Assembly: GCA_018824725.1 (NCBI GenBank)
Contig: JAHJGB010000124.1
Span: 1 to 41,178, forward strand
Direction: 5' to 3'
Origin: Candidatus Omnitrophota bacterium
Lineage (GTDB): Bacteria > Omnitrophota > Gorgyraeia > Gorgyraeales > Gorgyraeaceae
DNA length: 41,178 bases
Both the position numbers and the translations under genes were made by a program. Under the pieces are notes generated by a model, which saw nothing but the letters and a program-made list of their open reading frames with translations, did no database searches and had not been told where the DNA came from. Every line of letters begins with the position of its first letter. Position 1 is the first letter of the stretch. Shown here one piece after another: positions 3,196 to 33,953 of this stretch.

Positions 3196-4319
3196 AAAAT
3201 AAATCCGGTGGCATAGAAAATCTGATACGTAAAATGCTCAAGAAGCACTCCTCCCCTCTTATGCTTATACAGGAGGAGGCGCTTGAGAAACAATTCAGGG
3301 CTTTCCTCAAAGCCCTGCCTGAAGTCATGCCTTACTACGCGATAAAGGCAAATCCGTATCCGGGAATCATTAAAAAGTTCATTGAATTAGGCGCTGGTTT
3401 TGACGTGGCGAGCGCCAACGAGATGAATACTGTTCTGGAACTCGGCGCAAATCCTGACAAAATAATCTTCGCTAACACTATAAAGTCCCATGAAGATATG
3501 AGATCCGCTTGCAAGAAAAAAGTAAAGCTCATGACCTTTGACAATGAGCCGGAATTATACAAAATAGCGAAAGCCTGCCCTGGCGCAAAAGTCATTATAA
3601 GGATCAAAGTGGCAAATATCGGCAGTATCGTAGAGCTCTCTCTGAAATTCGGGGCGGATCCGGAGCAATCGATATCCCTCCTCAAAAAAGCAAGGTCGCT
3701 GGGACTAAAACCCGTGGGCGTGAGCTTCCATGTGGGATCGCAATGCACCAATGCTGAAAATTATTTACAGGCCCTAGAGGTGTCTAGTGTGATATTCAAC
3801 GAAGCAAAACAATCAGGGATATTCTTAAATATACTGGATATAGGCGGCGGATTCCCTATAAAACATTTTGACGCTGACAGCCACCTTACATTTGAGCGCA
3901 TGGCAAACCCGATAAGGAAAAAATTACAGAGGCTTTTTGATAAAAACGTAAAGTTCATCGCTGAGCCCGGCAGATTTTTTGCAGGCCCTTCAGGAATATT
4001 GATAACGCAGGTGATAGGCAGGGCTTTCAGGAATAATAAAAACTATTATTATTTAAATGACGGCCTGTACGGCGATTTTTCAGGTATAGTGTTTGACCAC
4101 TGCAAATATGAATTCAAGACTTTAAACCGCGGGCAAAGGTTCCTGAGCACCCTGGCAGGACCTACGTGCGATTCATTTGATACGATTTCCTTAAGCGAAG
4201 ATCTTCCTGAGCTGGATGTGGGTAATGTGGTCTATGTGAAAAATATAGGCGCCTATTCATGCGCAAGCGCTGTGCCGAACTTCAACGGTTTTAAACCCGC
4301 AAAGATCGTGATGTGCTAG
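3192..4319 (+). CDS. Ornithine/lysine/diaminopimelate-type PLP decarboxylase (fold type III), probably ornithine decarboxylase-like
   Basis: Motifs PYYAIKANP (PLP lysine), HVGSQC, DIGGGFP, EPGRFF, GPTCDSFD; ATGA overlap with the upstream HSS gene. Confidence 0.85.
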   Translation: MKNKSGGIENLIRKMLKKHSSPLMLIQEEALEKQFRAFLKALPEVMPYYAIKANPYPGIIKKFIELGAGFDVASANEMNTVLELGANPDKIIFANTIKSHEDMRSACKKKVKLMTFDNEPELYKIAKACPGAKVIIRIKVANIGSIVELSLKFGADPEQSISLLKKARSLGLKPVGVSFHVGSQCTNAENYLQALEVSSVIFNEAKQSGIFLNILDIGGGFPIKHFDADSHLTFERMANPIRKKLQRLFDKNVKFIAEPGRFFAGPSGILITQVIGRAFRNNKNYYYLNDGLYGDFSGIVFDHCKYEFKTLNRGQRFLSTLAGPTCDSFDTISLSEDLPELDVGNVVYVKNIGAYSCASAVPNFNGFKPAKIVMC

Positions 4320-6063
4320 CTTCAAAAAATAAAATACTTCCTGCGTCGTAAAGAGGCCCATCGTATAATTCTACTATTTTCTTTCCCCTCTTCTTTATAA
4401 AATCTCTTATCGCGCAGCCGTCAGGATGATTTTTTAACGAGCCTATAAAAAATACCCTGTCTTTATGAACTCCTGATGCGCCGCCTATAAAACCAGTGCC
4501 GTAACCAGGTAGTTTTATATTTCCCGGCTTTACAAGCAAGGCATTTTTGCCCCAGATATCCTTTATGGATTTATCAGATGTAATAATACTCTTATCGTCC
4601 ACAGGCGCAATAGAACATTTCGCATATCCCTGTTTTACTTTTATAAATTTTACGTTTAGATTTTCTATATGCTTTTCGATTTTACCGTCATAGCGGATTA
4701 TGTATTTTCCGACACTGCACGCGTCGTAAATAATGTCTCCCGGATAGGCGGAAGATTTAATGACTTCGCCTTTAATACACTCATAGCCGTTATCCCTTAA
4801 AAGCCCGGCTATTTTTTCTAAATACGGTTCGTATATAACTTTTTTAGCATAAGAAAATAACATCATATCTGAGTGGCCTTTGACAGGCCCGGCCAGTTTT
4901 GGATGTAAAGGCACCTCTCTGACATAATAACCCATCTGCTTTAGTCTAAGTTTTGCTTCGGCCGGGATTCTAGGGTCAATAATGGCTATAACTTTTCTTA
5001 AATCTTTTATTTTAAAAATTTTAGACTCCCGTAATGAAATTTTAGCGCTATAAATTTTTTCCAAATATCTCTTCTCTTCTCCTTTATGCCCAGAGATGAA
5101 GCTGAAAAACTTTTTCGGGCCGTGGATTTCTATTAACCTGCGGTTTGGGATTTTTTTGGGGCCTAAAACACTTATTATTCTATTGCGCATTTGTCTGGCA
5201 CGCGCCATTTCCCCAAAGCTCACGTGATACGGCCCTGCCAGAATCGCAGCTTTTGAATTTAAATCTTCTGACGGGTGAAGGCCTATGCGGATTACTTTTA
5301 CGCCGGCTTTTTCAAAGATATCGCAAACTATAGCTGACCATTCTATTGCATCTTCGATCGAAAGCGGCTTGTATTTGCCATGTTTAAATAAATCCCCGAG
5401 CCCTGTGCCTTTTAAAACAATCGCAGGATATATGCGGCTTGTTTTTGGTTTTAACTTTACCAGCTCCAAAGCTGTCTTTATTGATTTCAGAAGCGTATCT
5501 CCGGGCAAGCCCAGCATCACCTGGATGCCTAAATCAAGGCCTGATTTTTTTATGATGCGGCTTGCGTTTTTAATCGTACTGAAATTCATGGCCCTATTAC
5601 ATTTCTTCAAAACCTCTTTATCAAGCGACTGTACGCCAAGCTCCACCAGGCATCCGCCCATTTTCTTAAACAGCTTCATTGATTTTTCAGTAACAGCCTC
5701 AGGATGCGTGGACATGCGGATCCCGGCTATTTTTTTATACATTCGCCCCGATTGCAATCGGGGCTCAGTATTCCGCCTAAGGAACCCCGGGCTTAAGCCC
5801 GGGTGGGCTCCATTTTCCACATAAGGGAAAACTGTTTCGAGGTACTTTTGCTGCAGCGCTTCAGGCAAAAGCGTAAACGTGCCGCCGAAAAAGGCAAGCT
5901 CCACCCTTTCGCGTCTTGGGATTGTTTTTAAATTTCTATCTATGACGGCTTTAATGTCTTTTTCTGAAGGGATGTTTACTGCGCCTGATATTTTATGCTG
6001 GTCGCAGTAAATGCACCTGTACGGACAGCCTGCGTGCGGGATAAATATGGGTATGATTTTCAC
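4291..6063 (-). CDS. Elp3-like radical SAM protein fused to a DUF6873-type (GME-fold) C-terminal domain
   Basis: CX3CX2C motif CPYRCIYC in FIPHAGCPYRCIYCDQHKISG, FFGGTFT, STHPEAV; C-terminal half KVKQGYAKCSIAPVDDKSIITSD...GFIGGASG...DGPLYDAGSILFF resembles DUF6873 proteins. Contains an in-frame palindromic insertion at 5745..5816. Confidence 0.8.
   Translation of the reverse strand: MKIIPIFIPHAGCPYRCIYCDQHKISGAVNIPSEKDIKAVIDRNLKTIPRRERVELAFFGGTFTLLPEALQQKYLETVFPYVENGAHPGLSPGFLRRNTEPRLQSGRMYKKIAGIRMSTHPEAVTEKSMKLFKKMGGCLVELGVQSLDKEVLKKCNRAMNFSTIKNASRIIKKSGLDLGIQVMLGLPGDTLLKSIKTALELVKLKPKTSRIYPAIVLKGTGLGDLFKHGKYKPLSIEDAIEWSAIVCDIFEKAGVKVIRIGLHPSEDLNSKAAILAGPYHVSFGEMARARQMRNRIISVLGPKKIPNRRLIEIHGPKKFFSFISGHKGEEKRYLEKIYSAKISLRESKIFKIKDLRKVIAIIDPRIPAEAKLRLKQMGYYVREVPLHPKLAGPVKGHSDMMLFSYAKKVIYEPYLEKIAGLLRDNGYECIKGEVIKSSAYPGDIIYDACSVGKYIIRYDGKIEKHIENLNVKFIKVKQGYAKCSIAPVDDKSIITSDKSIKDIWGKNALLVKPGNIKLPGYGTGFIGGASGVHKDRVFFIGSLKNHPDGCAIRDFIKKRGKKIVELYDGPLYDAGSILFFEASTSRSLRV
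5745..5816 (-). repeat. Dispersed palindromic element, copy A, inside the radical SAM ORF
   Basis: Perfect palindrome GCCCCGATTGCAATCGGGGC followed by core GCTCAGTATTCCGCCTAAGGAACCCCGGGCTTAAGCCCGGGTGGGCTCCATT; core shared with 7662..7714. Confidence 0.8.
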
Positions 6064-7379: not shown

Positions 7380-8453
7380 TTAAACGTTGGTCAATTTTCT
7401 AAAGGACTGGATAATCTCCAGCATGCCTTCTTTTGTCTTTGTGCGGAAAGCCTTTTCCCTGAAAGACCTGACGCTGGGGATGCCTTTTGTGTACCATGCG
7501 AAAAATTTATGAAATCTCCTGATGCCATGAAGGGCGTCATAGAAATCAATATAGGAATTCATGTGCTCTATCATAACATCAGCTATTTCATCTATACTAG
7601 GTTTTTTGATACATTCGCGGCCACCTATCCACGGCCTTAAGGCCGTGGATAGGTAATGACCGCTCAGTATTCCGTCCAAGGGATCCCGGGTTTTAGCCCG
7701 TGTGGACTCCATTATCTTTTTATTTTTTAAGAATGTCTTTATCTGCTCGAAGATCCAGGGGTTCCCCAGCGCCCCCCTGGCCACAAGTAAGCCGTCGCAT
7801 CCTGTTTCATCCAGCATTTTTTTACCAAGCTCGGGACTAAGCACATCCCCGCTTCCTATAACAGGGATGTCCAGGGCCTTTTTTACATCTTTTATGGCGT
7901 CATAATCCACTTCTCCGCTGTAGCCCTGCTCCCTGTTTCTTCCGTGGATAAATAAAGCACTTATGCCTGCGTCCTGGCTCGCAAGAGCTGAATCTTTTGC
8001 GTTTATAGAATCCCTGTCCCAGCCTGTGCGGATTTTTACAGTGACAGGCTTGGCGGAATTTTTGACAATAATCTTTAATAACTTATTCAGCTTTTTAGGA
8101 TCTTTTAATAATGCAGCGCCTTCGCCGCGGCGCGCAACCTTTTTCACAGGGCAGGCTGCGTTAAAATCCAGGACATCGTACTCGTAAGAACCGAGTACGT
8201 CTAATGCCCTGGATATAAATTCTTCTTCGCAGCCTATGATCTGTATGCCGAGCGGCCTGTCCTTAGGGCTCGTGGAAAGCATTTTCTTCGTTTTACGCAT
8301 CTTATAGCTCAGGGACCTTACATTAATCATTTCTATAAAGCCGAGCTCGCAGCCAAACCTGCGGTTTAAGAGCCTGAAAGGCAGATCACTTACCCCTGCC
8401 ATAGGCGCCAGGATGAGATTTGACTTTAATTTTAAACTTCCGATTTTCAGCAT
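7380..8453 (-). CDS. dus: tRNA-dihydrouridine synthase
   Basis: LILAPMAGVSDLPFR, DFNAACPVKKVARRGEGAALL, VTVKIRTGWD, IHGRNREQGYSG, VIGSGDV, LLVARGALGNPWIF. Contains an in-frame palindromic insertion at 7623..7714. Confidence 0.92.
   Translation of the reverse strand: MLKIGSLKLKSNLILAPMAGVSDLPFRLLNRRFGCELGFIEMINVRSLSYKMRKTKKMLSTSPKDRPLGIQIIGCEEEFISRALDVLGSYEYDVLDFNAACPVKKVARRGEGAALLKDPKKLNKLLKIIVKNSAKPVTVKIRTGWDRDSINAKDSALASQDAGISALFIHGRNREQGYSGEVDYDAIKDVKKALDIPVIGSGDVLSPELGKKMLDETGCDGLLVARGALGNPWIFEQIKTFLKNKKIMESTRAKTRDPLDGILSGHYLSTALRPWIGGRECIKKPSIDEIADVMIEHMNSYIDFYDALHGIRRFHKFFAWYTKGIPSVRSFREKAFRTKTKEGMLEIIQSFRKLTNV
7623..7714 (-). repeat. Dispersed palindromic element, copy B, inside the dus ORF
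   Basis: Perfect 32-nt palindrome ACCTATCCACGGCCTTAAGGCCGTGGATAGGT, then core GCTCAGTATTCCGTCCAAGGGATCCCGGGTTTTAGCCCGTGTGGACTCCATT matching copy A. Confidence 0.8.
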
Positions 8454-8478
8454 AGATCTTATGTTGCCTTATAGTCAT

Positions 8479-8526
8479 GATGGAAGCCCGACTCCCATCA
8501 TAAATGATGGGAGTCGGGCTTCCATC
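8479..8526. repeat. Intergenic palindrome, GGGAGYCCGACTCCC family
   Basis: Perfect 23-bp arms GATGGAAGCCCGACTCCCATCAT / ATGATGGGAGTCGGGCTTCCATC, 2-nt loop. Confidence 0.85.
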
Positions 8527-8549
8527 AAACCCTATTTTACCTCATACCA

Positions 8550-18040: not shown

Positions 18041-18058
18041 TTTTAATCCTTTCATTGA

Positions 18059-18123
18059 CTATGGGAGCCCGACTCCCGTAGTTTTTCTTGCCAGCCCTCA
18101 CTATGGGAGTCGAACTCCCATAG
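18059..18123. repeat. Tandem pair of short hairpins, GGGAGYCCGACTCCC family
   Basis: CTATGGGAGCCCGACTCCCGTAG and CTATGGGAGTCGAACTCCCATAG separated by about 20 nt. Confidence 0.8.
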
Positions 18124-18209
18124 TTTTACAGAGCTTTATTTCTTTACAAGCCATCAGGTATTAGGTATATTATAGTATATTATATGATATTTGGAAAGAG
18201 GAGGTATTT

Positions 18210-25433: not shown

Positions 25434-25534
25434 TGATGCAATTCTTTCTATCTATATTAAGGCTGCTTTATAATTTTAAACCAATGTGCCGATGGAAATA
25501 TAATACATATAATAGGCATCATAGTCAAGACCAA

Positions 25535-25571
25535 ACAACTAGAAAAACGACAATGTTGATTTTCTAGTTGT
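25535..25571. repeat. 3'-end hairpin repeat, copy 2
   Basis: ACAACTAGAAAA-ACGACAATGTTGA-TTTTCTAGTTGT, perfect 12-bp arms, immediately at the stop codon of the UPF0016 gene. Confidence 0.8.
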
Positions 25572-30988: not shown

Positions 30989-31000
30989 ATACCCTTCCAA

Positions 31001-31052
31001 ACAACTATAAAAACAACAATGTTGAATTTATTGTTAAAAGTGTTATTGTTGT
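31001..31052. repeat. 3'-end hairpin repeat, copy 3
   Basis: ACAACTATAAAAACAACAATGTTGAATTTATTGTTAAAAGTGTTATTGTTGT; core shared with copies 1 and 2; 12 nt past the yjbQ stop. Confidence 0.65.
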
Positions 31053-31481: not shown

Positions 31482-31518
31482 AACTCACCTCATTTTCGTT
31501 CGCCGAACGGAGTAGTTA

Positions 31519-31559
31519 CTATGGAAGTCCGACTCCCTGTGGGAGTCGGACTTTCTATA
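31519..31559. repeat. Palindrome overlapping hemW stop codon, GGGAGYCCGACTCCC family
   Basis: ATGGAAGTCCGACTCCC-TGT-GGGAGTCGGACTTTCTAT; hemW stop TAG (31557..31555) lies within it. Confidence 0.8.
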
Positions 31560-33867: not shown

Positions 33868-33905
33868 TACAAAATATCTCCTCTCTATTTGTCAACTACT
33901 ACCTT

Positions 33906-33950
33906 CACTATGGGAGCCCGACTCCCATCGGGAGTCGGGCTCCCATAGTG
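33906..33950. repeat. Intergenic palindrome, GGGAGYCCGACTCCC family
   Basis: CACTATGGGAGCCCGACTCCC-ATC-GGGAGTCGGGCTCCCATAGTG, perfect 21-bp arms. Confidence 0.88.
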
Positions 33951-33953
33951 ACC

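Follow-up and report, generated by a model that had tools for sequence, protein, structure and literature searches.

Within the gene for the tRNA dihydrouridine synthase DusB of an Omnitrophota bacterium lies a stretch of palindromic DNA that is translated in frame with its host, and a related stretch lies in frame in a radical SAM gene of the same contig. This raises the question of what such DNA is, how it came to interrupt conserved genes without breaking them, and whether nucleic acid or peptide is the conserved entity. We analyzed the window (contig C146, 41,178 nt) together with the rest of its genome, a draft MAG of 1.66 Mb in 181 contigs, and with related genomes. It is important to note that the genomes are draft MAGs and that gene calls rest on open frame and homology. 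The element is very probably a non-autonomous, palindromic, MITE-like mobile DNA of Omnitrophota that was recently amplified and is tolerated in frame.

Two copies of the element in the window

The two copies, their parts, and their host genes are listed in Table 1. An earlier note on this DNA had aligned a core shared by the copies, and this core was recovered at positions 7662-7713 and 5763-5817 (84% over 55 nt). The palindromes that it placed 5' of the core were likewise perfect and of the sizes given, 32 nt in copy B and 20 nt in copy A (5745-5764). The interval that it assigned to copy B, 7623-7714, does hold the element, but the element starts 12 nt earlier, with ACATTCGCGGCC, and ends 2 nt sooner. 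This palindrome forms the inside of hairpin 1, and part of the outer hairpin-1 stem (CGGCC/GACCG) falls beyond that interval. Hairpin 1 of copy A is of a short type, CCCCGAT/ATCGGGG.

Table 1. Coordinates in the window of the two element copies, their parts, target sites, and host genes.
Feature	Positions	Strand	Remarks
Copy A, complete element	5739-5813	+	75 nt; in frame within radical-SAM gene
Target pentanucleotide TTTAT	5734-5738	+	5' of copy A
Copy A host gene, radical SAM protein	4291-6063	-	Radical_SAM_C + DUF6873
Copy B, complete element	7611-7712	+	102 nt; in frame within dusB
Target pentanucleotide TTGAT	7606-7610	+	Immediately 5' of copy B, outside element
Copy B linker 1 (left end), ACATTC	7611-7616	+	Invariant across copy alignment
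Copy B hairpin 1, long type	7617-7663	+	Holds perfect 32-nt palindrome, 7623-7654
Copy B linker 2, TCAGTATTCC	7664-7673	+	Nearly invariant among copies
Copy B hairpin 2	7674-7707	+	Outer stem GTCC...GGAC
Copy B right end, TCCAT (consensus YYCAT)	7708-7712	+	Junction from empty sites, 2-nt AT ambiguity
Copy B host gene dusB, tRNA dihydrouridine synthase	7380-8453	-	Pfam PF01207 4.5e-70, TIGR00737 4.4e-98

Copy B is read antisense to the element and encodes 34 residues (MESTRAKTRDPLDGILSGHYLSTALRPWIGGREC), which form residues 248-281 of DusB and separate the barrel from the C-terminal part. The junction expected from the sequence proved right to about one residue, as the sister gene reads ...FLKNKKI/IPRPGIDEIADI.... 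Copy A encodes about 25 residues, E-N-GAHPGLSPGFLRRNTEPRLQSGRMY-K, and its site is empty in L056 and in G168/L167. The difference in reading frame described for the two copies was confirmed (K-I-MESTRAK... in copy B, E-N-GAHPG... in copy A), as was a paired change in the outer stem of hairpin 2, which is GTCC/GGAC in copy B versus GCCC/GGGC in the consensus; the corresponding stem of copy A, GCCT/GGGC, keeps one half of the consensus.

Element anatomy and structure

Across the copies, the common plan was TTTAT^ ACATTC - hairpin 1 - TCAGTATTCC - hairpin 2 - YCAT, with two hairpins and copy lengths from 63 to 153 nt. Hairpin 1 came in three types: a long type, GCGGCC...GGCCGC, with an inner palindrome; CCCGCCA...TGGCGGG; and CCCCGAT...ATCGGGG. 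The usual hairpin 2 was GCCCAAGGAACCCCGGGCTTTAGCCCGGGTGGGC; in some copies it is shorter or longer, or another hairpin takes its position. The modular build proposed earlier, a variable palindrome joined to a fixed 50-nt core, therefore stands in one respect, since hairpin 1 is swapped at one and the same site across three species (see below), but the core is not fixed: hairpin 2 also varies, through lost parts, nested inserts, and replacement in chimeras. What is nearly invariant is instead a set of three single-stranded linkers, ACATTC, TCAGTATTCC, and YCAT, placed around the two hairpins.

To describe the stems, we used 21 long-type copies, in which standard pairs made up 93.4% of stem cells and 9 of 22 stem pairs had changes on both sides. 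Double changes occurred in 27 cells (10.9 in shuffles), a count that none of 500 shuffles reached; controls in which the pairing partner was slid gave at most 7. Because this covariation is between paralogous copies, it demonstrates structure-dependent copying and does not demonstrate a function in the host gene. Rfam contained no match to the element at gathering score.

Several copies were more complex. A nested repeat, GGTTCGACAAGCTCACC...GTCGAGGG, was found inside hairpin 1 or 2 of four copies (L005, L039, the second copy of L051, and the + copy of L190), and CCTGCCTGCCGGCAGGCAGG was nested within hairpin 2 of L004 and L009. In three chimeras (L188, L189, and the - strand copy of L190) the left half of the element was joined to unrelated hairpins, one of which was terminator-like with a T run.

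Copy number and distribution

A 13-nt motif of the element, GCTCAGTATTCCG, had 39 exact occurrences in the genome and 15 more with a single mismatch (reversed control, 2), numbers that chance does not account for, and ACATTCG lay upstream of essentially every one. In total, the 1.66-Mb genome holds about 54 copies and 3 chimeras; a scan for left ends contributed one canonical copy and the three chimeric ones. Left ends lacking a right end, which would be the signature of an autonomous element, were also sought in this way, and only more copies, the three chimeras, and chance matches were recovered.

When the exact linker pattern was searched against 85,462 species, real copies were confined to Omnitrophota; the few matches outside the phylum lacked the rest of the element. 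A covariance model, the check that the earlier note had suggested, placed the family in 32 of 191 Omnitrophota genomes, with a second expanded lineage in G037 (14 copies).

Empty sites, target, and exchange of hairpins

We used the flanks of 20 sites of this genome, with the element removed, as queries against 12 genomes of the genus. The nearest relative, G168 (82 to 89% identity over empty flanks), was empty at 15 of these sites, and no element was seen there at an orthologous position among the 20 searched, which points to a recent burst. The comparison of occupied and empty sites proposed in the earlier note thus yielded clean insertions at orthologous positions of sister species. In these alignments, the gain was exactly ACATTC...YCAT after the pentanucleotide, and the rest of the site was unchanged. 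About 17 sites with empty counterparts had such a clean insertion with a T-rich pentanucleotide on the 5' side. The pentanucleotide was TTTAT in most copies and in empty sites, with TTGAT and ATTAT as the main variants and TTTCT as the left flank of L049, and the 3' flank in empty sites was also T-rich. Apart from an ambiguous AT, the target was not duplicated; with AT present at each junction, a duplication of 2 nt would look the same as none.

Five sites (L005, L036, L045, L049, and L052) were common to several species. At the L005 site, this genome and G193 carried the long hairpin 1, G196 carried the CCCGAT type, and hairpin 2 was recognizably alike in all three, while the site was empty in G194 and G092. 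A differing hairpin 1 next to the same hairpin 2 is direct evidence that hairpin 1 has been exchanged in situ, and hairpin cassettes are probably exchanged between copies by recombination via the common linkers. At another site, where this genome holds copy L026, the sister species G168 (L180) and G016 (L181) held unrelated hairpin inserts, and this location may be an insertion hot spot for hairpin elements.

In-frame inserts in protein-coding genes

About 28 copies were read through by an open frame. For 16 of these inserts, alignment to uninterrupted sister orthologues showed a clean gain of 21 to 42 residues each. Two of the 16 lay in opposite orientations in the single gene for UvrA (L030, G000:C148), and the others in valyl-tRNA synthetase, TilS, DusB, QueE, MurB, MurF, HolB, NAD synthase, thioredoxin reductase, a CAAX protease, a YfhO membrane protein, a DHODB Fe-S (PyrK-like) subunit, a polysaccharide deacetylase, and a radical SAM enzyme. 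Pfam/NCBIfam domains were found on both sides of the inserts and the flanking protein was conserved; in housekeeping genes, such conserved flanks suggest that host proteins keep their function with the insert.

The earlier note had proposed looking for a bias in length modulo 3, and the bias was pronounced. All 16 gene inserts were multiples of 3 (63 to 126 nt, nine different lengths), compared with 12 of 24 copies outside read-through genes (Fisher P = 0.0005). With the modal length of 102 nt left out, the counts were 12 of 12 in genes and 3 of 15 elsewhere (P = 2.6e-5). We infer that this length filter reflects survival of the host gene.

The frames in use were sense 0, 1, and 2 and antisense 0 and 1; the remaining antisense frame, in which TACTGA and GTATAA give fixed stops, was never used. 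Copies in sense orientation lay mostly at the N terminus, just ahead of signal or membrane segments (L002, L007, L009, L013, and L046), where TTTTTAT was common in the insertion regions. As five frames are used and the stems covary, no peptide is conserved. This agrees with the proposal of a copied, structured nucleic acid, and neither of the outcomes that the earlier note had set against it, stems without paired changes or the use of one frame only, was found: copies occur in five of the six frames, and every shuffle had fewer paired stem changes.

Proposed mechanism and alternatives

Under the mobile-DNA explanation, insertion would be blind to genes and frames, gene-breaking insertions would be purged by selection, and the surviving inserts would be neutral peptides of 21 to 42 residues, translated within the protein in loops or N-terminal leaders. 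Many insertions could survive, given common lengths that are multiples of 3 and the possibility of an open frame in five of the six.

For the movement itself, we give about even chances to a model drawn by analogy with IS200/IS605 elements, in which the element would move as folded single-stranded DNA and a Y1 (HUH) transposase would cut it in trans, at the left end 3' of TTTAT and at the right end 3' of YCAT. Both hairpin stems are directly preceded by ATTC(C); pairing of this motif with TTAT/YCAT does not follow the IS608 pattern, whose guide/target pairing the element fails to match base by base. The T-rich 3' flank of empty sites is also less typical of such a step. Of the 191 Omnitrophota genomes, 153 had Y1 genes, and with such near-ubiquity their co-occurrence with the element is uninformative. 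None of the five Y1 genes of this genome had an adjoining copy, and no copy lay at the ends of its RAYTs at C17, C128, and C139. A flanking RAYT or IS200 element was thus rejected as the source; the Y1-like ORFs at L131 and L132 adjoin a different repeat, GGGAGTCGGGCTCCC. Elsewhere in the phylum, a weak, divergent copy was observed about 150 nt downstream of a RAYT stop codon (G055:C6, L149), and this was the only transposase-linked copy seen. Lagging-strand bias is known for IS608 and ISDra2. In G037, which has a strong GC skew, the orientation of copies by replication strand was 7:7, with no such bias in this small sample.

The main rival to the HUH step is a serine recombinase, IS607-like or large, that would mobilize the element by way of a circle in which AT is the 2-bp crossover core; the hairpins would then be incidental or serve another purpose. 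AT occurs at each junction of an occupied site but a single time in the unoccupied one, the pattern that such a core predicts, the genome has one large serine recombinase gene, and a lack of strand bias fits as well. However, the left target is a T-rich pentanucleotide, which is more than AT, covariation in both hairpins indicates that structure matters for copying, and no TnpB-type partner was found, so that we consider this route unlikely. A functional RNA or DNA site (a regulatory hairpin, terminator, or RNase site), kept in its host loci because it is useful, seems less likely still. In its favor, numerous copies are intergenic or located at stop codons, related palindromes elsewhere act as RNA hairpins, and at shared sites the linkers are unchanged where flanks differ by 8 to 30% and hairpins diverge or are swapped; this linker conservation is biased, because shared sites were mostly found via an exact linker match. 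Moreover, a search by flanks only showed almost all sites to be empty in sister species, and copies sit in both orientations within unrelated housekeeping genes, both of which speak against this explanation.

Two further explanations concern the product of the interrupted genes. The insert might be left untranslated, spliced from the mRNA or bypassed by the ribosome, a thought prompted by the normally compact enzymes that are interrupted (ValRS, MurB, MurF, NAD synthase, TilS, and HolB). Removal needs neither lengths in multiples of 3 nor frames free of stops, yet both were observed, and there was no match to an Rfam ribozyme; we regard this explanation as very improbable. That the peptide itself is selected as a common protein module has next to no probability: same-frame copies do look alike (MEPTRAKARGS...), but five of six frames give unrelated peptides, and five element peptides compared with Pfam/NCBIfam had no match even at E<=10. 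Returning to mobile DNA, it is possible, although less likely than not, that the element represents a phylum-specific, single-strand-type mobile DNA with swappable hairpin cassettes, shaped for coding DNA by its usual multiple-of-3 lengths and by five frames that can be open, and moved into essential genes by a mechanism outside the known Y1, RAYT, and serine systems of this genome.

Other repeats in the genome

A second palindromic repeat, GGGAGTCGGGCTCCCATAGT, occurred in the window at positions 8477-8527, 18058-18127, 31515-31552, and 33905-33952 and was mostly intergenic. The RAYT-like ORFs at C7 and C162 (L131 and L132) are bordered by copies of this repeat, which is therefore probably their REP. 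The repeat AACAACTATAAAAACGACAATGTTGA was found at 131-169, 25531-25569, and 30997-31035 of the window and also beside the element copy in L035. In addition, a promoter-like box, TTGAAAGAAAAC-N-TGTCTTAT, lay ahead of an ECF-type sigma factor gene and of three RAYT transposase genes (L001 at about 504 and 1561; upstream of the RAYT start in L128, L129, and L130; and L091 and L103). This box would put the transposases under an alternative sigma factor.

Comparison with known systems

In kind, the element belongs with phenomena already known: the Rickettsia palindromic elements (RPE; Ogata 2000, 2002) and Wolbachia palindromes (Ogata 2005), as summarized in PMC2229807 and PMC10969869, and intragenic REPs. 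Like RPE, it is a multicopy palindromic element of about 100 nt, with many copies in frame in conserved genes and others intergenic, and for RPE likewise the mobilizing transposase is not established. The Gmk of R. conorii is cited in PMC2229807 as remaining active with an RPE insert. The present element differs from RPE in occurring in Omnitrophota, in having two separate, non-identical hairpins with invariant linkers rather than one long stem, in its exactly established target and junctions, and in the use of five frames, where each RPE has one conserved peptide (PMC10969869). The five element peptides had no match to described RPE families in the NCBIfam/Pfam comparison above (E<=10), which covers the peptide level only.

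Intragenic GTAG/CGTC REPs (Di Nocera 2013, PMC3733652) are also small hairpin repeats of 20 to 30 residues in housekeeping and DNA repair genes of several phyla. In Opitutus and Thioalkalivibrio, uvrA was hit twice by these other palindromes (PMC3733652), as it is by the element here. Unlike those REPs, the element has no GTAG/CGTC tag (its tag is ATTC), is a two-hairpin composite of 63 to 126 nt in fixed order, has no flanking RAYT in its own genome, and has a sharp TTTAT target.

The element also resembles the ends of IS200/IS605 elements and group A IStrons. Group A IStrons insert downstream of exactly TTGAT, ATTAT, or TTTAT (PMC4227781), and the element shares this T-rich 5' pentanucleotide and the absence of target duplication and of terminal inverted repeats (PMC4227781, PMC6006769). 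Its two subterminal hairpins, each with a short motif directly before the stem, look similar to those of such ends (PMC6006769). In contrast to IS200/IS605, no transposase lies within or adjoining it, its right end is YCAT and not TCAG, and lagging-strand bias was not seen in G037. ERIC, RU-2, and Correia elements (PMC2229807) are likewise small and non-autonomous, and their open frames become fused to genes; most of those have terminal inverted repeats and target duplications, whereas this element has neither. We found no published description of the element in the literature searched, and absence there is no proof. New here are the phylum, the build of two hairpins and three linkers, the base-resolved target, and the cassette exchange.

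Implications

The route by which Rickettsia-type palindromes enter genes has been hard to settle, as neither their insertion sites nor their ends had been resolved. In the present data, a dozen close genomes define both occupied and empty sites to the base, and they also yield a target rule and cassette swaps at the same site, which makes the mechanism testable. In-frame palindromic DNA is thus not peculiar to obligate intracellular bacteria. The inserts amount to natural peptide-insertion experiments in ValRS, UvrA, MurB, MurF, NAD synthase, TilS, and DusB, and annotators and structure predictors will see them as unexplained loops of 21 to 42 residues.
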